Assembly: GCA_017472085.1 (NCBI GenBank)
Contig: JAFUQZ010000062.1
Location: 1 to 64,000 of the forward strand
Length of the DNA: 64,000 nt
Direction: 5' to 3'
From: Akkermansia sp.
GTDB taxonomy: Bacteria; Verrucomicrobiota; Verrucomicrobiia; Verrucomicrobiales; Akkermansiaceae
The notes below the pieces were generated by a model. The model was not told the origin of the DNA. It saw only the letters and a list, made by a program, of their open reading frames with translations, and made no database searches. The translations under genes and the position numbers were made by a program. Shown piece after piece: positions 19,270 to 32,202 of the stretch (the stretch's first letter is position 1; each line of letters begins with the position of its first letter).

Positions 19270-20391
19270 ATGAAATTTCAACGCAATATTCCAAGCGCGT
19301 TTGTGGTTGCCGCGTGCTGCTTCTCTCATGTGTCGGCACGGGTGGAGCCGCCTTCATTGTGCCGAGGCGCTGTCATCACCATATCCGGTGGGCAGCAACG
19401 GATGTCGACGAGCGAACTGCGGGCGTATCGCAGACTGTATCGGCAAGATCCGCCTCCATTCTCAGTGACTATCAAAATGGGGGAAGGTTTCAAAGTCGGT
19501 AACACGGAGTGCTATCTGCCCGGGTGCAGAATCAATCCGGCTTCTATCGATAACCTTGATAATCCGAAAGTTGACTGTATCATCTACCGCCCGAGCGTCA
19601 GCAGTGCGGAATTGCTGGTGGATGTTACAACAGATACCGGCAGAACGAGCCCTCGTTTTTTTCTGCGACGGGAGTTGACACGTTCGGAAAGCGTGTGCGC
19701 GGGCACGGGGCTTGGCTCCGGTGCGTGGATAGAGTTTTCGAAGAAGGAGGGTAACACCTGGCATGGCGTTATTCGTGGCTACTTATATAACGCGGATAAT
19801 CCGCAGGGCATCGTCTGGATGTTCGGCAATTCCCCCATCACCATAACACTGCCGGCAGAGGGGGAAGATTGGTCCCAAATCGCCGCTGTTACTGCGGAAC
19901 CGGAGCAAGATGATGAAGAGGCCTCTGCCGCAGACGAACCGTCATCGGCTGCCCCGCCCACGTTAGCGGATGAGGCCGTTTGCGAAATTATCCGTAAGCG
20001 TCTGCAGCTCATGGTAAATAATCCTGTGGATGAAAAGCTGGTGAATGAGCTTTATGCTGAAAACGTGACACGACTTTCCGACGGGCAATCGGTCAGTCGG
20101 GAGCGGCTCCTGGAAAACGCCCGCAATCTGGTAACGAACTGGCCGCGTCGCGGGGTGAATCTCCTCGCCGTTGGCAGGAATGATTATCAGATAGAACTGC
20201 TGACGGTATTTTCCTACAGCAATAATACAGGCAAGGAAATCTCCGGTTATTCTAAATTAACCCTCTCTCTGGATGAAAAGGGGAAAATTAACGGCATGGA
20301 TGACAAAATTACGCCGAAAAAAGGAAGCCTTTCTCCGGACGTTTCACCCTTTGAGTACACGGGGAAACGGGAATGGATAACAGTCGAGTAA
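19270..20391 (+). CDS. Secreted protein of unknown function
   Basis: A 373-residue protein with a signal peptide (NIPSAFVVAACCFSHVSA, cleavage near residue 23). A beta-rich region (about 30-200) is followed by an acidic, alanine-rich linker (EPEQDDEEASAADEP) and a C-terminal domain of about 140 residues. That last domain resembles the end of the protein encoded at 17620-18804 in layout (a helical block, then a beta sheet). It is one of few genes here with a clear Shine-Dalgarno sequence (AGGAGG about 9 bases before ATG). No catalytic motif seen. Confidence 0.6.
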   Translation: MKFQRNIPSAFVVAACCFSHVSARVEPPSLCRGAVITISGGQQRMSTSELRAYRRLYRQDPPPFSVTIKMGEGFKVGNTECYLPGCRINPASIDNLDNPKVDCIIYRPSVSSAELLVDVTTDTGRTSPRFFLRRELTRSESVCAGTGLGSGAWIEFSKKEGNTWHGVIRGYLYNADNPQGIVWMFGNSPITITLPAEGEDWSQIAAVTAEPEQDDEEASAADEPSSAAPPTLADEAVCEIIRKRLQLMVNNPVDEKLVNELYAENVTRLSDGQSVSRERLLENARNLVTNWPRRGVNLLAVGRNDYQIELLTVFSYSNNTGKEISGYSKLTLSLDEKGKINGMDDKITPKKGSLSPDVSPFEYTGKREWITVE

Positions 20392-20413
20392 GCGTAACAA
20401 TCATAACATCATC

Positions 20414-20974
20414 ATGAAAATCAACCCTCAGAGAACGATAGCCTGCGGACTGCTTGCAGCCTGCGGCATGGCCTCCGTTTCTTGCACTTCGGCAGAATTC
20501 GGAAACGCAGTCACCCTCTTCGGACAAGCCGTTAAAACAGTATACCCGAATGATCCGGAGATGTCCCGTCTTGTAGACGGCATGCTGATGCTTTCAGCAA
20601 TAATCTGTTCCGCATGGGCAGAATCCGAAGTACAGGAGCGAGCAGCCTACGCCACTTCCGTGCAATATGTGGAAGCCAATCAACGGCAGCTTAATACCCG
20701 CCTGTCTCAGGCGAAAAAAGCAAATAGAGAACTCAGTCAAGTTACCTCTCAAAAAAACGGGAAACTGTCTGCGCAGCAAAAGAAAAAGGCAAAGGAGGCC
20801 ATCAATAAAAATGTGAAGCTGATTGATAAAGATCTCGAAACCGCCCGTCAAGCGCAGAAAGAAGCTAAAGGCGCGGAACTGGATGCTCTCCGTCAGCAGA
20901 TAGATGCACTGAGCAAGGAAAAACAGAAATTGCAGAAAAACAGCAACAGCCTTTCCGCTCTTTCCAGTATTTAA
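20414..20974 (+). CDS. Coiled-coil lipoprotein, paralogue A
   Basis: A 186-residue protein. The signal peptide ends in a Cys lipobox region (ACGMASVSCTS). A short hydrophobic stretch (MLMLSAIICSAWAESE) precedes RAAYATSVQYVEANQRQLN and a long Lys/Gln-rich coiled coil ending SNSLSALSSI. The C-terminal 125 residues align clearly with the next gene product. Function unknown; a periplasmic lipid-anchored rod is likely. Confidence 0.65.
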   Translation: MKINPQRTIACGLLAACGMASVSCTSAEFGNAVTLFGQAVKTVYPNDPEMSRLVDGMLMLSAIICSAWAESEVQERAAYATSVQYVEANQRQLNTRLSQAKKANRELSQVTSQKNGKLSAQQKKKAKEAINKNVKLIDKDLETARQAQKEAKGAELDALRQQIDALSKEKQKLQKNSNSLSALSSI

Positions 20975-20995
20975 CATGAGTGAAATAAGAAATAT

Positions 20996-21586
20996 ATGAA
21001 AATCAAACGTTCCGTATTCATCATGCTCCTTGTCAGCATTGGTGCGACCTCCCTTAATTCCTGCGCCAACATGAGCCGAGGCGAAATGATGGCCGGTGGT
21101 GCCGGTTTCGGCGCCGTCCTTGGCGGTGTGGCAGGAAACATTATCGGTAATGACACCGTCGGCACACTCATCGGTGTTGGGGCCGGGGCTCTTGCCGGAC
21201 TTATCGTCGGCTATGTCTGGAGTGAATCCATTGTGGAAGACCGTTCAGCCTATGCCACCAGCGCTGCCTACGTGCAGGCTAACAATCAGCAGCTCGATAA
21301 TCGCATCCGTGAAGCACGCAAGGCCAATAAAGATACAGCCAACAATGTTTCTTCCATCAAGAAGAATAACAAGAAGATTTCTAAAAAGGATCGCGACAAG
21401 CAAAGCGCCGTCATGACTCAGAATATCAACCTGATGGAAAAGGATATTCAAACGGCCAAAAAAGCCGCTAAGGAAGCCTCCGGTTCCGAATTGCAGCAAT
21501 TGCGTTCTCAAATCAATACTCTTTCCGCTGAGAAAAAACAGATGGAGAAAAACCGTAGTGCGCTGAATTCTCTGGCGGCTATATGA
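20996..21586 (+). CDS. Coiled-coil lipoprotein with glycine zipper, paralogue B
   Basis: A 196-residue protein with lipobox SLNSC. Residues 30-75 form a glycine-zipper-like segment (GGAGFGAVLGGVAGNIIG, then GVGAGALAGLIVGYVW), as in SlyB/Rick_17kDa_Anti outer-membrane lipoproteins. The remainder (SAYATSAAYVQANNQQLD onward) is the same coiled coil as in the previous gene. The pair arose by duplication; the zipper is lost or diverged in the first copy. Likely outer-membrane associated. Confidence 0.7.
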   Translation: MKIKRSVFIMLLVSIGATSLNSCANMSRGEMMAGGAGFGAVLGGVAGNIIGNDTVGTLIGVGAGALAGLIVGYVWSESIVEDRSAYATSAAYVQANNQQLDNRIREARKANKDTANNVSSIKKNNKKISKKDRDKQSAVMTQNINLMEKDIQTAKKAAKEASGSELQQLRSQINTLSAEKKQMEKNRSALNSLAAI

Positions 21587-21666
21587 TTATTATATACATG
21601 TTTTCGACATAGAAACAACGCGGACAGTCATTCCATCAGAGATTTTAATGCCACACTTATCAGCTT

Positions 21667-23427
21667 ATGAAAAAGAAACTCATATCGATAATAGCATTGG
21701 GGGCAGCGGCTCTGTTGAGCTGTTGCGGCTCGATAAAAACCGCCTCGCTCGGGGGCGGTTCGTACCCCGGTAAAGATTATGTGACAAGTCTTCGCCCCAG
21801 CGCCGCTTCCAGACAGTATTTTGCCCAAATCGGCAACAAATCTCCCATAGAGTCCCTCACACGCGCTAATGCAGGGCGCAGCAAGAGCGGGGTGCGTTTT
21901 GTCGCGAATGACGGTATTCTGATTCCGGCCGGTGTCACCATCCAATTCTATAACAAGGGATATTGCATGGACCCCCAATTGCCGGCGCCTGTGTCGAATG
22001 AGGAGTACCAGCTTGTCCCCACATCCGCACTCATCCCGAGCCAACTGCAGGGTATCTATCAGAACCTTGTGAAACGCGCAGCCGCCGGTGATACCACGGT
22101 GAAGAGCAACATGCAAGGGCTTGTCTGGGCGCTGCGCACTGCCGGCACGGAAGGCAGCTATGCGGCTCGCCTTTCCTCCACCCAGAAACGCATTCTGGAC
22201 AGCTGCTCCTCCCGCCCGGGGGAGTTTGAGCGCGTTCACAACAGCGGCCTGGCTACCGGCCGATTAGTCGGTGAGCTGTGGAAACTGGCAGATTCTGCCG
22301 TCAATGTGAGATTCGGTAACCGCACCTGGAAGCCCAGCGATTTCAGCAGTGCGGGTGCTTTCAATAGCGCCATTAACTCACAGTTAGACAGCCTTATTTC
22401 CATGGGGTCGAAACTGCCCATCCCGCGCACCGGATTTAATTATGGCGAGCCGGAACCCGGCATCTATACCGACATCAATGGTGCAGGCCTCTTGGCATTT
22501 AACGCTAAAATTGCCAACTCTACCAACAAGGATTTCATTTTCTACCCCAGCAACTATGTCGGTCAGGTAGGCTCCGGATCGGTCCTCTCCGCCGTCTCTT
22601 TCGCCGCTTCCTCCAGCGTTACCCAGCGCCAGCGTGTCACTATGGGGCCGATTGCTCAGGTGAATGTTTTGGATAAACGCATACCTGATGCCCCGATTCC
22701 TAATGACGTAATACCGTTTAAAGGCCAATCTTGTGCAGAAAAAGCTAAGCAAATTGAGATGGCTGCACTTGCTGCTGCGGTGTATGGAGATTCTCGTTTT
22801 GCTGAGACTCTTGCCGAAAATAAAGGATACAAATTACTACATGAGAATATTAAATATAGAATTGGCAATGACTATGTTAGTTCTTTATACATAAATGAAC
22901 AAACGAAAACAGCATGCGTTGTATTCCGAGGAACAAACAATATCCTAGATGGGGTAGAGGATATAGGTTATTTTAAATCAAACTATAATTTAACACAAAT
23001 AGTAGGTAACAATATATTTAAATTCATAGACGATATTCCTAGATTTAAACATGCTCAACAATTCACAGAACTCGTTATCAAATCTTATCCAGGATATTCG
23101 ATTAATCTAGTAGGCCATTCTCTTGGCGGCTCTGTAGTTCAATATGTAATGAGCAAGTTTCCATCAAAAAACATAGAAGCCTATACATTTAATTCATATG
23201 GTCTTCCTTATGCTCAAGGAATCAAAAAAGACAATAGAATAACTGATATCATTAATGGAAATGAGTTTATAAACATGCTTAATCTTTTAAAAACTTCTCG
23301 CACAACAGGCAAACAAGTAATGGTTGGCGCAGAGAACGGAGATAGTGATGACAGGTTAAATATTTGGGATGACAAACATAGCATCATTTCAACGCTTCTT
23401 AATATGACTCAGGATGGATGCAGATAG
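21667..23427 (+). CDS. Class 3 lipase-type lipoprotein
   Basis: A 586-residue protein with a lipoprotein signal (LISIIALGAAALLSCCGS). Residues 20-340 are an unrecognised extracytoplasmic region. Residues about 350-560 are an alpha/beta hydrolase of the Lipase_3 type: CVVFRGTNN carries the oxyanion-side block and GHSLGGSV has the nucleophile Ser at about residue 485. It should cleave lipid esters at the envelope; substrate unknown. From about 22690 the DNA turns much more AT-rich and stays so into the next gene. The stop overlaps the next start by 10 bases. Confidence 0.72.
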   Translation: MKKKLISIIALGAAALLSCCGSIKTASLGGGSYPGKDYVTSLRPSAASRQYFAQIGNKSPIESLTRANAGRSKSGVRFVANDGILIPAGVTIQFYNKGYCMDPQLPAPVSNEEYQLVPTSALIPSQLQGIYQNLVKRAAAGDTTVKSNMQGLVWALRTAGTEGSYAARLSSTQKRILDSCSSRPGEFERVHNSGLATGRLVGELWKLADSAVNVRFGNRTWKPSDFSSAGAFNSAINSQLDSLISMGSKLPIPRTGFNYGEPEPGIYTDINGAGLLAFNAKIANSTNKDFIFYPSNYVGQVGSGSVLSAVSFAASSSVTQRQRVTMGPIAQVNVLDKRIPDAPIPNDVIPFKGQSCAEKAKQIEMAALAAAVYGDSRFAETLAENKGYKLLHENIKYRIGNDYVSSLYINEQTKTACVVFRGTNNILDGVEDIGYFKSNYNLTQIVGNNIFKFIDDIPRFKHAQQFTELVIKSYPGYSINLVGHSLGGSVVQYVMSKFPSKNIEAYTFNSYGLPYAQGIKKDNRITDIINGNEFINMLNLLKTSRTTGKQVMVGAENGDSDDRLNIWDDKHSIISTLLNMTQDGCR

Positions 23428-24077
23428 CAAATAAGATTTATTTCGCGTTATTAGTTATCATGGTTTCCTGTTGTAGTACACAAAAGACACCCGCAGATGC
23501 ATGTGCGTTTCTGTGGAAACACAGATTTGAGGATGAGTCAATTTTATATCGGTTTGATTTATTATCCGAAGTTGCAGGTATAAATAAACGTACTCAAACT
23601 GAGGTAAAGCTTATCATCCAAGAAAACAACCTCCTCCATGCAGAGACCTTACCCGGAGGGAAGATAGTCATCTCAACCGGTTTTCTGGATAACATGCAGT
23701 ATGAAGCAGAGCTTGCGTTTGTCCTGGCACATGAGATGGGTCATGTGCTGGGGCAGCATGCTGAGAGAGAGCTGGCGCTGGCAGGCACCCCGGAAGGGGA
23801 GCGGGGGGCTCAGGCTCGCAGGCTGCGCTGTGAGCTGGAGGCAGACCGCGAGGGTTTGCTGTTGATGGCGCGTGCCGGATATGATCCTCGCGTGGGGCTG
23901 CGATTCTGGCATCGCTTCACCAGCACCCCGGAAGCCGTGTTGCAACAGCAGCTTGCCGGCACGCATCCCAGCCATGAGGAACGGATGCGTGCCCTGCAGT
24001 CCGCGCTGCCGGAAGCCATGCAGCTGTACCGCCTCGCAGAAAAGCAGGTGGGCAGAGGAAGTCGACTCAGAAAGTGA
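23418..24077 (+). CDS. M48-family metallopeptidase lipoprotein
   Basis: A 219-residue protein with a signal peptide ending MVSCCSTQ (Cys lipid anchor likely). The zinc site HEMGH is at about residues 105-109, with the third-ligand block ELEADREGL about 35 residues later and THPSHEERM near the end, the normal order of periplasmic M48 (BepA/LoiP-like) proteases. It probably degrades or chaperones envelope proteins. The first third is AT-rich, the rest GC-rich. It lies 110 bases before the peptide precursor genes, but nothing shows that it processes them. Confidence 0.8.
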   Translation: MQIANKIYFALLVIMVSCCSTQKTPADACAFLWKHRFEDESILYRFDLLSEVAGINKRTQTEVKLIIQENNLLHAETLPGGKIVISTGFLDNMQYEAELAFVLAHEMGHVLGQHAERELALAGTPEGERGAQARRLRCELEADREGLLLMARAGYDPRVGLRFWHRFTSTPEAVLQQQLAGTHPSHEERMRALQSALPEAMQLYRLAEKQVGRGSRLRK

Positions 24078-24121
24078 TTCTATGCCATTCTGTGTTGAAA
24101 TAACAAAAAATCGTCGGGTGT

Positions 24122-24143
24122 ACACAAATGCCAACGTTTGTGT
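24122..24143. terminator. Short hairpin between the peptidase gene and the precursor genes
   Basis: ACACAAA pairs with TTTGTGT around an 8-base loop. No T-run follows, so it may be a weak terminator or an RNA stabiliser. A TATAAA at 24165-24170 could be the -10 of the precursor promoter, but I find no well-spaced -35. Confidence 0.35.
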
Positions 24144-24186
24144 GCAGTAGAAACAAAATAGAAATATAAACCAAACATCATAAACT

Positions 24187-24291
24187 ATGCTTACTCCTAT
24201 TGTAACCGTAGGTTCATCACAGGCCGACGCCGGCTGCTGCGATGTGTTCGGCTATGGCGGTGGTGCTCGCTGCACCTGCAATTATCAGTAA
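24187..24291 (+). CDS. Candidate RiPP precursor peptide 1 (34 residues)
   Basis: A very short reading frame encoding a Cys-rich peptide. It starts MLTPIVTVGSSQADAG, continues CCDVF, then a glycine-rich loop GYGGGAR, and ends CTCNYQ. The second short gene 230 bases on gives a homologous peptide, and identities fall in blocks (MLTPIV, CCDVF, CTCNYQ), which is what selection on a protein would produce. The first 16 residues look like a leader and the four-Cys remainder like a core; the AG before CC could be a cleavage point. The radical SAM genes just downstream suggest that the core is cross-linked. No Shine-Dalgarno sequence seen. Confidence 0.75.
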   Translation: MLTPIVTVGSSQADAGCCDVFGYGGGARCTCNYQ

Positions 24292-24313
24292 TTGACAGTC
24301 AAATACCAAATTC

Positions 24314-24344
24314 CGGCGGGGGTGTCTCGCTTGCATCCCCGCCG
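24314..24344 (+). terminator. Hairpin after precursor 1
   Basis: An 8-base GC stem (CGGCGGGG with CCCCGCCG) and a 15-base loop, followed by CTTTTAAAT. The T-run is weak, so partial termination or 3'-end protection is likelier than full termination. Confidence 0.65.
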
Positions 24345-24416
24345 CTTTTAAATTAAGAGCAACATTCTTATTCAGGATTCCATCTTTATTTATTCACCTA
24401 TCATTCACTTACGACT

Positions 24417-24509
24417 ATGCTTACTCCGATTGTTGCCACCGGTTCGACTCAGGTTGAGGGGGGCTGCTGCGATGTATTCTTCCCTGACTGTACCTGCAAT
24501 TATCAATAA
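24417..24509 (+). CDS. Candidate RiPP precursor peptide 2 (30 residues)
   Basis: Homologue of precursor 1. Leader-like MLTPIVATGSTQVEGG, then CCDVF, a shorter loop FPD, and CTCNYQ at the end. The two peptides match at 9 of the first 12 residues and at all 11 residues of the two core blocks. They differ in loop length (7 versus 3) and just before the first Cys (AG versus GG). The constant four Cys and the variable loop suggest a fixed cross-link frame that displays a variable segment. The radical SAM genes begin 147 bases downstream, after the second hairpin. Confidence 0.75.
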   Translation: MLTPIVATGSTQVEGGCCDVFFPDCTCNYQ

Positions 24510-24531
24510 TTGACAGTCAAACACCAAATTC

Positions 24532-24562
24532 CGGCGGGGGTGTCTCGCTTGCATCCCCGCCG
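24532..24562 (+). terminator. Hairpin after precursor 2
   Basis: The same 8-base stem and loop as after precursor 1. It lies between the precursors and the enzyme genes, so it could keep precursor transcripts abundant relative to the enzyme genes. Confidence 0.65.
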
Positions 24563-24655
24563 CTTTTAAATGAAGAGCAGCATTCATCTTCGCGATTTGT
24601 CTCGCATTTATTCACCTCGTTCAGCAGGGTGTTTATTTTATATGATAAAAACAAC

Positions 24656-26038
24656 ATGAAAGAGTTAGAAGAAAAAGGGATATTTTTCATACCTGCCGGG
24701 AACGAATTCGGGCAGGCAGATAATGAGACGGTATATATTGTATACGCGCCGCTATCGGGGCGTTCTTTTTTGATAAGCGGACGGGAAAAAGACAACATAG
24801 AGCAAAAGCTATTGCTGCTATCAGAAGCAACAGAAGACGTAACAGATCCTTTACAGGTATTGTTTGCCGAGAAAAAACGGCGGCAATGGCTTCAATTTGA
24901 AATTGCACCGGAGGATTGTCTGAATCTGACCATTCTGCCCAATCACCGCTGCAATTTTCAATGCGCGTACTGCTATTCTGCCGGAGGGCGTGGCGGTGCG
25001 GAATTAACTGCGGCTCAGGTAACATCCCTGGCATCATGGTCGCTAAAGCATTGTGCTCAGAAAAAAAGGCCTTGCCGCATACTGTATCTGGGTGGAGGAG
25101 AGCCCCTCTTATCGTGGGCTACTGTACGAGAAAGCATTTTACAGATAGAGGAATGCAACAAAGAACACAACGTCCCGCTGGAGTTGTCCATCAGTACCAA
25201 CGGGTCTCTGCTCACTCCGGATAAGATAGAGTTCCTGCGCGAGCATAAGGTGCGGGTGCAGGTGTCTTTTGAAGTGCTGGAAGATGTGCAGAATGCTCAG
25301 CGCGGGCATTACGACCTCGTACATGCCAACATTCAGGCTGCCATAGCTGCCGGTCTGATTCCCGCTATCCATTCCGTCATCACAGAGACGAATGTTGAGC
25401 GCATGGAAGAAGTGGTACGAACAGCCCACGAACAATATCCCGAATTGAAAAAACTGGGATTGGAACCGGTAGTGGATGCACAGCTGCTGGCGGATGTTCA
25501 ATCAGCAGGGCGTTTCTATGAGCGTTTTTATGAAGGTTATATTAAAGCTGAAACGCTTTGCCGAGAGTACGGAATTGAACTGCTGACCTCTTGCAGCAAG
25601 GCGTTGGAAACAGTCAGAACGCATTATTGCGCAGGGCAAATCACGCTTACTCCTCTGGGGGCGTTCTCTGCGTGCGAAGCCATCAGCAATCCTAAAGAAG
25701 ATGGCTATGCCGAAGTCATTTTCGGAAAATTGGATGCCGGAGGAGAACCGGAGTTCGACATGAAGAACTTTCGCCGCTATCATCCTGCAAGGCCAAGTTT
25801 TGAGCGTGATAAGTGCGACATCTGCTGGGCACGATGGAACTGCGGGGGCGGCTGTAACTATAAGCGCCGCACTCTGACTGAAGAAGTGTTCGATGAGTAC
25901 TGCCGATTGAACAGACGACTCATGGAGCATTTCCTTGCCAACAAGTTGCGCCGCGAGTATGCACAGGCTATGCAGGGTGCAAACCTGGATGCAGCAGTAA
26001 ATAACATATTCTCTCAACACAAAGAAAATCATGAGTGA
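24656..26038 (+). CDS. Radical SAM/SPASM peptide-modifying enzyme 1
   Basis: A 460-residue protein. Residues 1-90 form a separate N-terminal region (IPAGNEFG...YAPLSGRSF) shared with the next gene product. The radical SAM motif CNFQCAYC (Cys 99, 103 and 106) binds the SAM-cleaving 4Fe-4S cluster, and GGGEPL follows. A C-terminal SPASM-type region has many Cys (about 325, 340, 387, 390, 396 and on, including CDICWARWNCGGGC) for auxiliary Fe-S clusters. SPASM enzymes install thioether or carbon links in ribosomal peptides. The ATG at 24656 is preferred to a GTG at 24629. It overlaps the next gene by 8 bases. Confidence 0.88.
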   Translation: MKELEEKGIFFIPAGNEFGQADNETVYIVYAPLSGRSFLISGREKDNIEQKLLLLSEATEDVTDPLQVLFAEKKRRQWLQFEIAPEDCLNLTILPNHRCNFQCAYCYSAGGRGGAELTAAQVTSLASWSLKHCAQKKRPCRILYLGGGEPLLSWATVRESILQIEECNKEHNVPLELSISTNGSLLTPDKIEFLREHKVRVQVSFEVLEDVQNAQRGHYDLVHANIQAAIAAGLIPAIHSVITETNVERMEEVVRTAHEQYPELKKLGLEPVVDAQLLADVQSAGRFYERFYEGYIKAETLCREYGIELLTSCSKALETVRTHYCAGQITLTPLGAFSACEAISNPKEDGYAEVIFGKLDAGGEPEFDMKNFRRYHPARPSFERDKCDICWARWNCGGGCNYKRRTLTEEVFDEYCRLNRRLMEHFLANKLRREYAQAMQGANLDAAVNNIFSQHKENHE

Positions 26039-27371
26039 CACATCCCCCCTGGAACCGGAGGTCTACACTATACCGGCCGGTGAATATTTCGGCCATGATA
26101 ACGAGGCTGTACAAATCGCCTATGCCCCGCTGTACGGAGCCTACACACTGGTGGATTCAAAGGAAGCAAGAGCTTTGCTGGAGACATCAACCCACGATGC
26201 GGACTTCATCAAGGCTCTGAAATCGCTGCCCATCTTGCCGCTGCTTCCCACACCGCCGACAACAGATGATATATGGGAGGTTGATTTGTTGCTTAACAAT
26301 ATCTGCAATTTTCACTGCTCGTATTGTTACTCAGCAGCGGGACGATCCAACAAGCGGATGCCCGACGCTGCGTGGAAAAAAACAGTTGATTTCATTTTTG
26401 CCCAGGATAAAAAAGATAAGTTGCCTGTAAGGTTCAGCTTTTCCGGCGGGGGAGAGCCCCTCATCAGTTTCCCGGAAATACGTCGTGTTGTAAGTTATAT
26501 AGAGCAGAAACAACAGGAAAACGGACGTCCCTATACGCTGGGGCTGGTCACCAATGGAAGTCTGCTGACAGATGAAATTATCGAATATATCCGCGAAAAG
26601 AAAATACAGATTGTTGTTTCGTTTGAAGTATTGCCCGAGTTGCAGAACAGAGAACGCGGATCGTGGGATAAAGTGAATGCCAATCTGCACCGTATGCATG
26701 AGTTGGGCTGTCCTTTCGGTATACGCTCACCTCTTACAGAAGATGCACTTCCTCACTTGCCGGCCATGGTGGATAGGCTGGCAGAGCAGTTCCCCTTTAT
26801 ACATTCACTGGTAGTAGAGCCCGTGCATTCTCCGGAGTGGTATGGCAGCGCTGAAAAGTTAAGCGCCTATTTTGATTTGTTTTTCAAAACATACACGGAG
26901 GCGGTTGAACAAGCGGCTAAATTGGGAATTGCGTTGGTTAGTAATGCGTTCTCTCTGCTGAAATACAGACGTAAGGCCAAGTGCATGTGCAAGGCTGTGG
27001 TTACGGCCGAAGGTTCCATTTCTCATTGTGCACGAGTAGCAGCCTCAACCGAACCTCTGTACGACCGTTTTGTATACGGTCATGCGGGCACTCCCGGAAC
27101 TGCAGCGTTGAGCTTTAACCAGGATATGTTTACGTTCATCAATAAACGCAACATATTTGACCAACCCGAATGTGTGCACTGCTTTGCACGCTGGAACTGT
27201 GGCGGGGATTGCAGCCTGTTCCGACAGACTTATCCTGCGGAGTGTTACGAGGTTTCCTGTGATTTTACCAAACGCTGTCTGGTATGGGAAATGCTTCGAA
27301 ACATGAGGAAACGCTTTGAATACACAAATCCGGGACAGTCTTTTGAGGATTATGTGCGCTGCTCAATCTGA
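26031..27371 (+). CDS. Radical SAM/SPASM peptide-modifying enzyme 2
   Basis: A 446-residue paralogue of the preceding protein. It has the same N-terminal region (IPAGEYFG...YAPLYGAYTL), the cluster motif CNFHCSYC (Cys 92, 96 and 99), GGGEPL, and a C-terminal SPASM-type set including CVHCFARWNCGGDC and two later Cys. Two such enzymes next to two similar precursors suggest either one enzyme per precursor or two different bonds in each peptide. Transcription and probably translation are coupled: the start overlaps the upstream stop, and the downstream gene starts inside this one. Confidence 0.88.
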   Translation: MSDTSPLEPEVYTIPAGEYFGHDNEAVQIAYAPLYGAYTLVDSKEARALLETSTHDADFIKALKSLPILPLLPTPPTTDDIWEVDLLLNNICNFHCSYCYSAAGRSNKRMPDAAWKKTVDFIFAQDKKDKLPVRFSFSGGGEPLISFPEIRRVVSYIEQKQQENGRPYTLGLVTNGSLLTDEIIEYIREKKIQIVVSFEVLPELQNRERGSWDKVNANLHRMHELGCPFGIRSPLTEDALPHLPAMVDRLAEQFPFIHSLVVEPVHSPEWYGSAEKLSAYFDLFFKTYTEAVEQAAKLGIALVSNAFSLLKYRRKAKCMCKAVVTAEGSISHCARVAASTEPLYDRFVYGHAGTPGTAALSFNQDMFTFINKRNIFDQPECVHCFARWNCGGDCSLFRQTYPAECYEVSCDFTKRCLVWEMLRNMRKRFEYTNPGQSFEDYVRCSI

Positions 27372-27912
27372 GCTTAGGTGTGTTCTCTTTACGAACCGAC
27401 TCAGTCCTGTTGTCCCGGCTCTGGCCAATACAGAGGGGCTGAGATTGGTGGGGCTTGTGCATCCGACTCACCCCATTGACACGGCTGACGCCATGCGGCA
27501 GCATATTTCTGCCGAAATTCCGTTATTCGAATACCATCCGGAGCAGGGGGTATCATTGTCTGCGTTTCTTCGTAACATCAATGCACAACTGCTGGTGGTG
27601 TACGGCTTTCAGCATATTATATCGGCTGCTATTCTGGAACAATGCCCCGGCGTAAACCTTCATCCCAGTCTTTTACCCGCTTATCCCGGATTAAATCCAT
27701 GGACAGATCAAATGAAAGCGAGTCCAACGACCGGAGGTTATACAGTCCACAAGCTTTCACCCCATGCGGACTCAGGAGAGATTCTGGCCCGGGCAGAGTT
27801 TCCCTGGCCGTATGGTCTGACAGATTTGAGCCAAATACGTGATGTCACTCTCCGAGATTGCGGTGTTCCGTTGCTCATTAAAACTTTGCTTAAATCAACC
27901 ATTTCCAAATAA
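27352..27912 (+). CDS. Small formyltransferase-fold protein
   Basis: About 186 residues with the fold of 10-formyltetrahydrofolate-dependent formyltransferases (PurN and the Fmt N-domain). The catalytic trio is visible: Asn102 and His104 in VNLHPSLLP, and Asp140 in HADSGEIL. The C-terminal tRNA-binding domain of Fmt is absent, and PurN would belong in a purine operon, so a role in the peptide pathway, such as formylating an amine of the product, is inferred. The ATG at 27352 overlaps the upstream gene by 20 bases; a TTG at 27316 is less likely. Confidence 0.78.
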   Translation: MCAAQSELRCVLFTNRLSPVVPALANTEGLRLVGLVHPTHPIDTADAMRQHISAEIPLFEYHPEQGVSLSAFLRNINAQLLVVYGFQHIISAAILEQCPGVNLHPSLLPAYPGLNPWTDQMKASPTTGGYTVHKLSPHADSGEILARAEFPWPYGLTDLSQIRDVTLRDCGVPLLIKTLLKSTISK

Positions 27913-27913
27913 T

Positions 27914-29320
27914 ATGAATCAGATATCCAAAGCACAACGCATACTGTTTGTCATACCGGCTTATTCCATGTATCCTCGGGGGCGCTATGTCATGCCTCTG
28001 GGGATTTTATATGTGTCTGCCGCCGCCAAATCCGCCGGGTTGGATGTATGCTGCCTGAACCTCAATCATGAGACGGGGGATCCGGGTAAAGCTCTTTCCC
28101 GTAAGATTGAAGAAACAGGCTGTACCATTGTTGCCGTAGGGGGACTATCCGGAGAGTTTAAAGACCTGTATGCTGTACTGAGGCATGTGCGAAGACACTA
28201 CCCGGAAATCACTACTGTAGTGGGTGGTGGTATTATAACAGCAACCCCCGAGGTGGCCATGCAGGCTTTGGAATTTGCAGATATCGGCATTATAGGCGAG
28301 GGGGATGAAACTATTGTGGAGTTGGTGAAGGCTCTCGAAAATCATACTCCCCTGGATGAAGTGGCCGGTATTGTGCATAAGCAGGGCGAAACATGGGTTC
28401 AGACGGCTCGCCGCAGGGATGTACAGAATCTGGATGCGCTACCTTTACCGGATTATGACGGATTTGAGTTCGCTCATTATTTGGCAACAAATAATCTTGG
28501 TTATGGGAATCAAGGAGAACCGCTTTCTCCGGTGAACATTGTGGGTAGTCGCTCCTGTCCATATATGTGCAGTTTTTGTTTTCATCCTTCCGGCCGAACA
28601 TACAGAGAGCGTAGTCTCGATTCCGTGTTTTTGGAAATAGACTACCTATTGGAGAAATACCCGGGTATAAACCACATCGCCATGCGAGAAGAACTCTTTG
28701 CCTCTCGCCCGGAGCGAATCAGCGAGTTCTGTCGCCGCATTGCAGACTACAAACTGTATTGGAGCATTCAGCTGCGGGTGGATAATGTAAGTGAGTCGGT
28801 TCTGAGGGATTTATCCACAGCAGGCTGTTTTGCCGTATTCATCGGGACAGAAAGCATGGATGATACTGTGCTGAAAAGCATGAATAAGCGAGTTACCTCC
28901 GAGCAGTCTTGCCAGGCTTTGCAGCAAGCTGCTCGGAGTGGTGTCCCTATCCGAACCGGACTTATATTCGGAGATAAAGCTGAGACACAGGAATCATATC
29001 GCCGCACCTTATCCTGGTATAGACAACAGGATAGTTATTCAGAAATACAGAAACGCCCGCTTATCACAGTAGATATGCTTGTTCCTTTTCCCGGGTCAGC
29101 CATTTATCGCTATGCCTGCCGCAAAGGAATAATCCCGGATGAAGTGGAATACCTGCGCATGGGGTGTCCCCTGGTCAATCTGACTGATATGCCGGAAGAT
29201 GATTTTCTGGATATGATGCGCTGCGTGCAAGCGATTAACGGAAGGTCGTATCAGTATTTAAGCGGGAATGCATTACGAGAAATTTCTCCTCCTTCATGCT
29301 GCGAGATTATACAACGATGA
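27914..29320 (+). CDS. Cobalamin-binding-type radical SAM protein
   Basis: A 468-residue protein. The N-terminal 190 residues form a Rossmann-like B12-binding domain (MPLGILYVSAAAKSAG, then TVVGGGIITATPE and GIIGEGDETI), though no DxHxxG cobalt-ligand motif is seen. The radical SAM motif is CPYMCSFC (Cys 215, 219 and 222). This class includes methyltransferases and ring-forming enzymes acting on unreactive carbons. It follows the formyltransferase gene by one base and ends the compact cluster. No RiPP exporter or dedicated leader peptidase follows it. Confidence 0.85.
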   Translation: MNQISKAQRILFVIPAYSMYPRGRYVMPLGILYVSAAAKSAGLDVCCLNLNHETGDPGKALSRKIEETGCTIVAVGGLSGEFKDLYAVLRHVRRHYPEITTVVGGGIITATPEVAMQALEFADIGIIGEGDETIVELVKALENHTPLDEVAGIVHKQGETWVQTARRRDVQNLDALPLPDYDGFEFAHYLATNNLGYGNQGEPLSPVNIVGSRSCPYMCSFCFHPSGRTYRERSLDSVFLEIDYLLEKYPGINHIAMREELFASRPERISEFCRRIADYKLYWSIQLRVDNVSESVLRDLSTAGCFAVFIGTESMDDTVLKSMNKRVTSEQSCQALQQAARSGVPIRTGLIFGDKAETQESYRRTLSWYRQQDSYSEIQKRPLITVDMLVPFPGSAIYRYACRKGIIPDEVEYLRMGCPLVNLTDMPEDDFLDMMRCVQAINGRSYQYLSGNALREISPPSCCEIIQR

Positions 29321-29466
29321 GGCATTCTCAGTCTTTTCCGTGGCTATCGGGCCACAAAGGGGGAGGGCAGTCTCAAGCTCCCGACAGTGGTGAAGACTCT
29401 CTGCTGATATGATACTACTAACAGTTTTGCATTGCAATATGATAAAAAAAAGAGTTTAATACATCC

Positions 29467-31236
29467 ATGAAAAATCTAGTAGCAAAGGTAGTCAGAGCAG
29501 GGGGGCGGAGTGGGATGCTGGGCCTGGTATATATGCTTCCTCTTATCCCGCTCTCTTGTCAGGCTGTTGCGGAGCCTGCAGAAGGTGCAACTGTTGTGGC
29601 GAAGCAGCTTTCCGATAATGGTGCAAAATATGTGGAAGCTGCAGCGGCCTCAGCAGCTTTCAGCGAGTTTCAAAGCATTCTGCATGGATATTCGAATGTT
29701 TTTCTGGAATCGGAGGTGTTGAGTATTTTAAAGGAAAAAGAGGTTTCCCGTAAACAATTCGAGAAAGATGTGGCGGCGTATGAGCTGAAAGAAAATGAAT
29801 GGGGCTATGTTGAAAGAGAGGAAGATGATTATGTCAGGACGGTGCAGGATATCAAATTGCTGCGTCGCGCGATGACTGAAGTTTCGGAAAAGGCAGAAAC
29901 TCTGCATCGTGCTCTGCTGAGTTTTGCCGGAAAGAGCATCCAAACGGCGCTGGATAATAAGGCTGTCAAGCAGGATGAGTCCGGGAATCTTACAGCAGCG
30001 GATGCAGAAATGGCTTACCGGGAGTTTTCTCTGTCGATGGTTCGACTGTTTGCTCGCGATTTGGTGGCGTTCCGCAGTCATGCTCAGTGGCTGGAGGGAG
30101 ATGTGCAAAGTGAGTCGCCCAACAGGGCTCCGCGCTCTATTGCGGTATCTCAGTATCTGAGCTGTAACGGCAATAATTCGGAAATTATCATGAGTGCCGA
30201 CGGCGCTCGGCATCTGTGGTCCAGACAGTTGGCTATAGTGGAAGGTGATTTGTTTTCTTTGCCCGATGGGGGGACGACCTACACGGATCCCATCAGCCGG
30301 GCAGAGTGGGGGGCTTCCCGTGCGGCGACGAAAAAGACAGTTGCGGTACTGAAAAAAGAATGGGATGGAGTGAAAGCTGCTTATGCGGCGTACATGAAAG
30401 CATGGGAGGATGCTTTTGCTCCCATGCCCGGATACCGCGGCAGCGGAACTCCGTATTGGTGCACAGATATGTGCATGCATATGTTTTCCCATTGGGAGGA
30501 GTTGGTCAGCTGGTTGCTTTTCCGTAATCAAACAGAGTTATCTGTGGTGAACAAGGATTGCTTCATGCTGAGACTTCCGGGGAAAGAGGCAAATGAATTT
30601 GCGAACCAATACTATGAAAAGCTGTCAGAAGCGGTGAAACATCAGGTGAGGGATAAAGAGGATGGGGAGGATGAGCCTGAAGTGGTGGATTTCCGGGAAC
30701 AGGTCGCAAGGCTCTACGATGCTCGTTTGCGCTATGCCATCGCCGGAATCTCCTGTGAATTTTACGGTGATGATGCGCGTATTGCCGAAGAAACGGAGAA
30801 GGCTCGCCACCAGATTAAAGAAGCGATGCAGCAAGATATTGCGGCAATGTTCTCCCGCGCTGACGCCGCCTCTGCTGATACGATGCATGATGTTCATTCC
30901 TCGCGCGATGGATTAGAGCTGTGGCGTAACCAAATGAGATTGATGATGACAGAGATAGGCAAGTCTTACGAAGATTACGCGATTCCTAAGCCATTCGGCC
31001 CGGCTGCAGTATCGTTCAGCGAGACGCATGTACAGCGCATTCAGGATTTGCTGAAAGAGACGGATGCTGCGTGGAATTGGTATCGACGCAGCTGGAATGT
31101 TCAGTTGTGTTGTCTCCACGTTGCCGGTAATAAGGAGTTGTTGCTGCACGCTCTCCGCGATCAATGGCTGAAAGACCTGTACCGCCGGGCATACTCGCAG
31201 GAAAGCTCAGAAGAAGAAATAGAACCGGAAAATTAA
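29467..31236 (+). CDS. Large secreted helical protein of unknown function
   Basis: A 589-residue protein. The N terminus has a long signal (GMLGLVYMLPLIPLSCQAVA) that could be cut after AVA or lipidated at the Cys. The remainder is mostly charged helices with many Trp, Tyr and Arg and no motif I recognise. A 146-base gap with a TATGAT -10-like box separates it from the radical SAM gene, so it may be a separate unit. It ends 15 bases before another small exported protein. Confidence 0.55.
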   Translation: MKNLVAKVVRAGGRSGMLGLVYMLPLIPLSCQAVAEPAEGATVVAKQLSDNGAKYVEAAAASAAFSEFQSILHGYSNVFLESEVLSILKEKEVSRKQFEKDVAAYELKENEWGYVEREEDDYVRTVQDIKLLRRAMTEVSEKAETLHRALLSFAGKSIQTALDNKAVKQDESGNLTAADAEMAYREFSLSMVRLFARDLVAFRSHAQWLEGDVQSESPNRAPRSIAVSQYLSCNGNNSEIIMSADGARHLWSRQLAIVEGDLFSLPDGGTTYTDPISRAEWGASRAATKKTVAVLKKEWDGVKAAYAAYMKAWEDAFAPMPGYRGSGTPYWCTDMCMHMFSHWEELVSWLLFRNQTELSVVNKDCFMLRLPGKEANEFANQYYEKLSEAVKHQVRDKEDGEDEPEVVDFREQVARLYDARLRYAIAGISCEFYGDDARIAEETEKARHQIKEAMQQDIAAMFSRADAASADTMHDVHSSRDGLELWRNQMRLMMTEIGKSYEDYAIPKPFGPAAVSFSETHVQRIQDLLKETDAAWNWYRRSWNVQLCCLHVAGNKELLLHALRDQWLKDLYRRAYSQESSEEEIEPEN

Positions 31237-31251
31237 ACCTCTTTGTGAGAT

Positions 31252-31653
31252 ATGTTCAGATGTTGTTGTATCGGTCTTGTTGTAGCATCCGTATGTTGTT
31301 GCTGCCAAAACGACTCGCTTCTTGATTCGCCATGCTTGCGCGAGCTGATGAAAGATGCGAGGCCTCCGGGTGTGACGATAAGAGACCTCAACGGCTTTTA
31401 TTGGAATTATATCAGAGATAAGTCGCCATGGGAAAGTGCTGATGATTACGCACTTTTCCTTATTGATTATCTCGGAGCTCGAGCAGATCGGGACGAAGCA
31501 ACCATTTCTTATTCTGACCGGTGTACTGCTGCTTATAATTATAATCGGTGCGTTCTGTTTTGTAAGCGTGAACCATCTTTCCGCCATAGGGAGGAATTGC
31601 TGAGAACCATGGAAGCTTACAGAGTCAGATATAAACTCGACTTCAAAAATTAG
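31252..31653 (+). CDS. Small Cys-rich lipoprotein, unknown
   Basis: A 133-residue protein. The N terminus MFRCCCIGLVVASVCCCCQND is a lipoprotein-like signal with an odd run of Cys. The mature part has several Tyr, Arg and Cys residues and no recognised domain. It is close behind the large secreted protein and probably co-transcribed with it. A 13-base palindrome (CGCATA-T-TATGCG, 31660-31672) follows the stop. Confidence 0.55.
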   Translation: MFRCCCIGLVVASVCCCCQNDSLLDSPCLRELMKDARPPGVTIRDLNGFYWNYIRDKSPWESADDYALFLIDYLGARADRDEATISYSDRCTAAYNYNRCVLFCKREPSFRHREELLRTMEAYRVRYKLDFKN

Positions 31654-31759
31654 GCATTACGCATATTATGCGAAGTTGTAACAAAGTGCCAAATGAAGAC
31701 GAAAATCGAGTTCCCTGTGTTCAAATGATGGGAATTCGGGCGTGTGGCGGGATTCTTTC

Positions 31760-31788
31760 TTGACGCATGGGCGTGGTCGCGTTAGGAT
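31760..31788 (+). promoter_or_regulatory. Predicted promoter of the OsmC-family gene
   Basis: TTGACG (31760-31765) and TAGGAT (31783-31788) are 17 bases apart. The ATG follows after 6 bases. Confidence 0.55.
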
Positions 31789-31794
31789 GCTGAC

Positions 31795-32202
31795 ATGGTA
31801 AAGTGTCATGTTACATATCAAGGTGGGCTGCATTGTGAATTGCAGCATGAACCGTCGGGAGCCACGGTGTGCAGCGATGCGCCCGTAGATAACCGTGGTA
31901 AGGGTGAATCATTTTCACCGACAGACTTGATGTGTTCAGCCATGGCAGCCTGCATGGCCACTATCATGGGAATTTATGCTGAGGACAACGGTCTTGATTT
32001 GTCCGGCGCCAGACTGAGCGTCGGCAAAGTAATGAGTGCCAATCCCCGCCGCATAGCTCGCATCGAGACAGAAATCACCATTCCGCTTCCGGCAGATACG
32101 CCCCATGCGAAGGCGCTGGAGGAATGTGTGCTGGGGAGCCCGGCTATGCGGAGTCTGCACCCGGACATTGAAGTGCCGATTACCTGGAACTGGGTTGGTT
32201 GA
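31795..32202 (+). CDS. OsmC-family protein
   Basis: A 135-residue cytosolic protein of the OsmC/Ohr superfamily, which reduces organic peroxides through two conserved Cys. The block FSPTDLMCSAMAACMATIMG (about residues 42-61) has both: one in LMCSA and one in AACMA. This longer spacing is that of the YhfA/OsmC-like branch rather than Ohr, so substrate is uncertain. Its own promoter lies immediately upstream. The downstream membrane-protein gene follows after 23 bases. Confidence 0.85.
   Translation: MVKCHVTYQGGLHCELQHEPSGATVCSDAPVDNRGKGESFSPTDLMCSAMAACMATIMGIYAEDNGLDLSGARLSVGKVMSANPRRIARIETEITIPLPADTPHAKALEECVLGSPAMRSLHPDIEVPITWNWVG

Follow-up and report, generated by a model that had tools for sequence, protein, structure and literature searches.

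A candidate ribosomal peptide operon of Akkermansia with paired SPASM radical SAM enzymes, a formyltransferase and a B12-binding radical SAM protein

What is produced by a group of genes in which two very short, cysteine-rich reading frames precede four enzyme genes? This question is raised by a stretch of 64,000 nucleotides from Akkermansia sp. (assembly GCA_017472085.1, contig JAFUQZ010000062.1; the whole stretch is called the window), in which six genes on the plus strand were read from the sequence together with a list of its open reading frames (ORFs). The original prediction described two tiny homologous Cys-rich genes and four enzyme genes in the same direction with overlaps or gaps of 1 to 20 bases, and both parts of this description were confirmed. 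The short genes P1 and P2 are followed by the genes for two radical S-adenosylmethionine (SAM) enzymes of the SPASM type (rSAM1 and rSAM2), a small formyltransferase (FMT) and a B12-binding radical SAM protein; rSAM1 and rSAM2 overlap by 8 bp, rSAM2 and FMT by 20 bp, and 1 bp separates FMT from the B12 gene. We consider the locus very probably an operon for a ribosomally synthesized and post-translationally modified peptide (RiPP), an interpretation with good support from the genomic evidence. The complete proposal, a biosynthetic operon of a new RiPP family with cross-linking, formylation and B12-dependent tailoring, we regard as moderately probable.

P1 (24187..24291, plus strand, MLTPIVTVGSSQADAGCCDVFGYGGGARCTCNYQ) is an ORF of 34 codons for 34 amino acids with four Cys residues, and P2 (24417..24509, plus strand, MLTPIVATGSTQVEGGCCDVFFPDCTCNYQ) has 30 codons for 30 amino acids, four Cys residues and no Lys, Arg or His. 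The same operon is carried by three other genomes, labelled G006, G007 and G023, in addition to the genome of the window, G000. The orthologue of P1 in G023 encodes a 97% identical protein, and the two genes differ at 13 nucleotides in 102 bases. These differences alter 12 codons, 11 of them synonymously, and the sole replacement is Thr to Ser. When 13 changes were placed at random, the protein was kept so intact in 0 of 20,000 placements, which supports purifying selection on the P1 reading frame. Because the codon changes are mostly synonymous, P1 and P2 can be regarded as truly coding, and this argument is stronger than the count of a motif. The motif GCCD-x(3-12)-CxCxYQ-end, which was drawn up from these peptides after they were known, occurs in 2 of the 414 ATG ORFs of 20–70 amino acids in the window, namely P1 and P2, and none of 13,973 ORFs taken from first-order random sequence contains it.

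The eight intact precursors from the four species have ten invariant positions (M1, I5, G16, C17, C18, D19, C29, C31, Y33 and Q34). A conserved short front, MLTPIV...Q...[AGS]G, is followed by the core GCCD-x-F...CxC[ND]YQ, with Y33 and Q34 as the terminus of every intact precursor and a middle that varies in length and sequence. Lys and His are absent from all eight. A known precursor family was ruled out as far as Pfam and NCBIfam reach, since none of their families matched P1 or P2. The precursor sets consist of three 30-residue copies in G006, two 34-residue copies in G023, and one intact and one decayed copy in G007. This decayed second precursor of G007 (L031:5448-5537, ILTVTQANQEAGYCVCFTANYSCNYQ) has ACG where the homologous copy of G006 has ATG, and some of its Cys residues are gone.

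The distribution of the precursors coincides with that of the first SPASM enzyme. A single-sequence search of 59 relatives detected rSAM1 and meaningful precursor scores in G000, G006, G007 and G023 only. With a profile, rSAM1 was found in 4 of the 76 species of the genus searched and in 4 of 244 genomes of a family sample, and in a phylum sample of 388 genomes only in G000 and G023. The precursor profile recovered the four carriers in the family sample at expectation values (E) of ≤4e-6 (the matches of P1 and P2 have E 8.5e-19 and 5e-19); matches outside the four carriers were partial, with E 0.03–0.05, and were taken as noise. The original prediction had proposed this co-occurrence analysis and had named enzyme loci consistently lacking the short peptides as evidence against itself: within the genus and family samples, precursors and rSAM1 are confined to one and the same set of four genomes, and for rSAM1 no locus without the peptides occurred. 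By the synonymous substitutions and this exact co-occurrence, chance or mis-called short ORFs were ruled out. Orthologous B12 proteins are confined to the same four genomes in the family sample, and those of the three other operons are 74–85% identical to the protein of the window.

The gene for rSAM1 (24656..26038, plus strand, 460 amino acids) encodes a radical SAM domain (PF04055) with the motif CNFQCAYC, and the gene for rSAM2 (26031..27371, plus strand, 446 amino acids) was assigned by the Pfam Radical_SAM model, NCBIfam and a PDB profile. The two proteins are paralogues with about 30% identity. Both have the sequence CNFxCxYC, i.e. CX3CX2C, and a C-terminal SPASM-type pattern of seven Cys residues, which in rSAM1 are C325, C340, C387, C390, C396, C400 and C416. 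The best PDB profile match is CteB (5wgg; E 1.1e-20 for rSAM1 and 1.6e-23 for rSAM2), and the nearest NCBIfam models of the pair are the maturases of Nif11 peptides, PapB and the SCIFF maturases, with the PapB model as the best match of rSAM2 (E 7.5e-32). Foldseek placed TigE, CteB, anSME and SkfB among the top ranks for a low-confidence model of rSAM1; the AlphaFold models of rSAM1 and of the B12 protein have a mean predicted local distance difference test score (pLDDT) of 61–63, which is too low for reading a RiPP recognition element (RRE) or active-site geometry from them.

Like the SCIFF ranthipeptide system of CteB (TIGR03974, PDB 5wgg), the locus combines a SPASM maturase with a small Cys-rich precursor, but one maturase is present there and two to three are present here, and the precursors are unrelated, with no family match. 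To our knowledge, SCIFF loci contain neither an FMT nor a B12 partner. PapB and freyrasin (NF047865) resemble the system in that theirs is the best model for rSAM2 and Cys-to-Asp links would suit the invariant CCD; in contrast, the precursors described here lack the six CX3D repeats, or any repeated CX3D/E, and have one invariant Asp, in CCD.

A third SPASM enzyme is encoded at the end of the operon in G007 (L031:10322-11719, minus strand) and in G006 (L032:10752-12116, minus strand), in both cases convergent to the other genes. It is 36–38% identical to rSAM1, and a profile search of the 244-genome family sample did not detect it in G000 or G023. In G006 and G007 the precursor core reads CCDCF and contains five Cys residues, in the others CCDVF or CCDVS with four. 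The fifth Cys and the third SPASM enzyme thus occur in the same two species, a covariation that fits one additional enzyme per additional cysteine.

FMT (27352..27912, plus strand) is a small formyltransferase with a GART fold (PF00551, E 6.6e-16; NLHPSLLPAYPGLN and DSG) that consists of the catalytic domain only, with 186 amino acids. It matches glycinamide ribonucleotide, ArnA and methionyl-tRNA formyltransferases, at about 50 bits compared with curated NCBIfam cut-offs of 150–200. In a profile comparison with GAR transformylases (E 2.9e-14) the catalytic N, H and D were aligned; N103, H105 and D141 (numbering of alignment A4) are invariant, and NxH, the HPSLLP loop and the D all align. The GART fold and the N, H, D catalytic set are shared with PurN, Fmt, ArnA and the F domain of linear gramicidin, which formylates the alpha-amine of an amino acid on an assembly line. 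What differs is the RiPP setting, which is without parallel in the literature searched; no RiPP formyltransferase was found there, and subscription papers were partly outside that search.

The last gene (27914..29320, plus strand, 468 amino acids) encodes a B12-binding domain (PF02310) and a radical SAM core (PF04055) with CPYMCSFC, again CX3CX2C. This architecture is that of the B12-radical SAM enzymes TIGR03975, TsrM, PoyC, MgmA and ApyD, and the Foldseek neighbours are TsrM, OxsB, AprD4, CysS, MgmA and TokK. We know of no B12-radical SAM enzyme in an operon with SPASM enzymes of the thioether type and a formyltransferase. With the model for RiPP radical SAM C-methyltransferases (TIGR03975) the protein scores 117.3 against a cut-off of 281.85; the HpnJ and PhpK models score higher, and no curated cut-off is reached. 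A search of the phylum with the B12 profile revealed further relatives in other families, the five nearest at 37–43% identity, and several of them adjoin glycosyltransferases or sugar epimerases. The relatives at L067–L071 (genomes G527, G307, G525, G396 and G470) are longer proteins for which the same general B12 models are best, and 0 of the 4 relatives scanned reach a curated family cut-off. Since such relatives stand without the partners of the operon, the B12 gene probably came into the operon from a broader family, and what points to a role of the enzyme on the peptide is its membership of the operon.

Beyond the genes, their conservation and co-occurrence, the catalytic motifs and the covariation of the fifth Cys with the third SPASM enzyme, we infer the chemistry on the peptide, the leader cut site, the export and the biological role. 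P1 and P2 would be precursors of 30–34 residues with a front and a Cys-rich core, whose cysteines rSAM1 and rSAM2 would cross-link to other residues. The bonds would most likely be thioethers of the kind made by CteB and PapB, and we hold such Cys thioether links to be rather probable. The B12-radical SAM enzyme would then alkylate or otherwise alter an unactivated carbon of the cross-linked peptide. Methylation would be the simplest change, and for B12-dependent C-methylation we see slightly less than an even chance; the nature of this step is the least certain of all, because the B12-radical SAM superfamily includes the non-methylating members OxsB and AprD4. FMT would transfer a formyl group from 10-formyl-tetrahydrofolate to the free alpha-amine, which would belong to the full-length peptide or to a core released by cleavage behind [AGS]G. 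As the eight precursors contain no Lys, a formyl group placed on peptide nitrogen would find no ordinary amine other than the alpha-amine; formylation of the alpha-amine of the peptide is nevertheless a tentative assignment, and we put it below C-methylation in likelihood. The invariant Cys-Cys-Asp would be a plausible site of linkage, because PapB joins Cys to Asp in Cys-Xn-Asp and accepts spacings with n from 0 to 6 (PMC9413430).

Several results weigh against this proposal. Both SPASM enzymes remain under all curated NCBIfam cut-offs (PapB, NF047865: 89 and 110.8 compared with 340; SCIFF/CteB, TIGR03974: 81.1 and 84.6 compared with 425; Nif11-peptide maturase, TIGR04064: 103 and 102.4 compared with 518.7), and the reaction is not readable from the family membership. 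SPASM enzymes also epimerise, decarboxylate and form C-C or C-O links. No PqqD/RRE match was obtained among the operon proteins with Pfam at E 0.01; the N-terminal part of the rSAM1 model has a pLDDT <50. An RRE is common in RiPP systems but is not required. The surroundings of the B12 relatives contain no precursor, FMT or rSAM1/rSAM2 orthologue. The link between the fifth Cys and the third enzyme is based on two species pairs and may reflect a single evolutionary event. There is no leader protease or transporter among the operon genes, and a C39 peptidase was not found in G000, G006 and G007 and gave a weak match in G023. Processing of the C39 type at the [AG]G motif was ruled out on the ground that three of the four carriers lack C39. 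The missing protease and exporter are not disqualifying, because many RiPP clusters rely on distant or housekeeping proteases. The RiPP reading of the original prediction has gained a precursor family outside Pfam and NCBIfam, a SPASM pair nearest to thioether-forming enzymes, the catalytic residues of FMT and an enzyme of the B12 type, and is in this sense partly supported; its chemistry on the peptide, with thioethers as the links, one link for each SPASM enzyme, the formyl group on the peptide and alkylation by the B12 enzyme, keeps the rank of a proposal.

Among the alternatives, the one that survives best, though we consider it improbable, is that the peptide serves as a scaffold only. 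A cofactor or small molecule would be cut from the C-terminal C-x-C-[ND]-Y-Q, after which it would be formylated and modified by the B12 enzyme, in the manner of pyrroloquinoline quinone (PQQ) from PqqA and mycofactocin from MftA. The invariance of the extreme C-terminus (Y33, Q34) next to a variable middle would agree with such a pathway, as would the lack of a dedicated exporter in the operon, and formyltransferases and B12-radical SAM enzymes are more usual on small molecules and sugars, with B12 relatives located near glycosyltransferases. However, the N-proximal Gly-Cys-Cys-Asp block is just as invariant, no NCBIfam model for PQQ or mycofactocin comes near its cut-off, and the precursor variants of each genome and the covariation of Cys number with the third SPASM enzyme suit a cross-linked peptide better.

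We give distinctly less weight to a two-component bacteriocin, in which P1 and P2 would act jointly and a complex of rSAM1 and rSAM2 would modify both. In thuricin CD, TrnC and TrnD, which are encoded with TrnA and TrnB, act as a complex (PMC12093266). The likeness is that one cluster encodes a pair of paralogous radical SAM maturases together with a pair of paralogous precursors, and both a 34-residue P1 type and a 30-residue P2 type are present in the window. The operon differs from thuricin CD by the addition of FMT and the B12-radical SAM enzyme and by the lack of an exporter, which also speaks against a bacteriocin, and the number and type of precursors are not fixed across G006, G007 and G023.

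The same low probability applies to a division of the operon, in which the SPASM enzymes alone would modify the peptide, with FMT and the B12 enzyme catalysing a separate small-molecule step. The B12 relatives at 37–43% identity, which do without the partner genes, would agree with this division, but the FMT and B12 genes are packed behind rSAM2 and kept in all four copies despite different surroundings, and the confinement of the orthologous B12 proteins to the four carriers argues against it as well. It is highly improbable that the short ORFs encode peptides that bind metal or regulate without being modified, rather than substrates. The spacing of CC and CxC resembles metal sites, but in all four loci the ORFs stand at a fixed place before two SPASM maturases of the peptide type, and the genomes searched contain them at no other position.

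The arrangement of the locus bears on expression and on mobility. P1 and P2 are tandem copies of one unit, in which 110 nt from the last codons onward are 92% identical and both repeats contain a GC-rich 12-bp stem followed by CTTTT. A scan detected the corresponding terminator-like hairpins on the plus strand after P1 (24314..24344; 12-bp stem, then CTTTT; fold z -3.44) and after P2 (24532..24562; fold z -3.04). By fold analysis, similar hairpins lie 3' of the precursors in the three related loci, with a single hairpin common to two adjacent precursor copies in L031 and in L032; the comparison left out the second precursor of L033. Because the second hairpin of the window is located within the 146 bp between P2 and rSAM1, expression of the precursors probably exceeds that of the enzymes.

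The gene order is alike in all four loci, which belong to four species of one genus, and nucleotide similarity ends at the edges of the operon. The neighbours differ among the loci: in the window these are an M48 metalloprotease-like gene and a lipase gene, in the other loci other, unrelated genes. The guanine plus cytosine (GC) content of the operon is 0.487 compared with 0.56–0.575 in the flanks of the window; the contrast is similar in L032 (0.47 compared with 0.56) and much smaller in L031 (0.541 compared with 0.57–0.59). The shared gene order, the unlike flanks and the GC contrast suggest that the operon is a horizontally mobile unit. In the window, positions 20000–32000 form a low-GC island (0.47–0.50 compared with about 0.57) that contains the operon, the Lipase_3 gene, the M48 metalloprotease-like gene and, at 29467-31236 and 31252-31653, proteins that match no Pfam family. 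In G007 a tRNA-Gln gene (L031:11876-11947) adjoins the third SPASM gene and is a possible insertion site; the three remaining loci have no tRNA close to the operon. Against IMG/VR, rSAM1 and the B12 protein gave no match and rSAM2 gave a single weak relative (33% over 77 amino acids), plasmid records contained generic radical SAM proteins only (22–25%), and nothing in phages matched the P2 peptide; by these searches a viral or plasmid origin was ruled out. A single-sequence scan of wider genome contigs returned only three distant radical SAM relatives, and a second phylum, that of a Lachnospiraceae relative, gave 0 matches in 348 genomes in a scan without a positive control.

Taken together, what is new is the precursor family and the enzyme set, and what is known is the RiPP-type pathway. 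The combination of SPASM enzymes, a formyltransferase and a B12-radical SAM enzyme on a ribosomal peptide has no description in the literature and family libraries searched; many predicted RiPP families still await their chemistry. With substrates of 30–34 residues and four enzymes in about 5 kb, the system is compact enough for testing the action of FMT and the B12 enzyme on a SPASM-modified peptide, and the natural variants with four or five Cys residues and two or three SPASM enzymes permit a test of the division of labour among cross-linking enzymes. The most far-reaching version of the RiPP reading, which we consider unlikely, is a new class in which paired SPASM enzymes would build a polycyclic Cys-Cys...Cys-x-Cys core, with a third SPASM enzyme accompanying the extra Cys, a dedicated N-formyltransferase adding a cap and the B12 enzyme changing a carbon. 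If it is true, this would possibly be the first case of a ribosomal peptide natural product that has its own dedicated enzyme for N-formylation.

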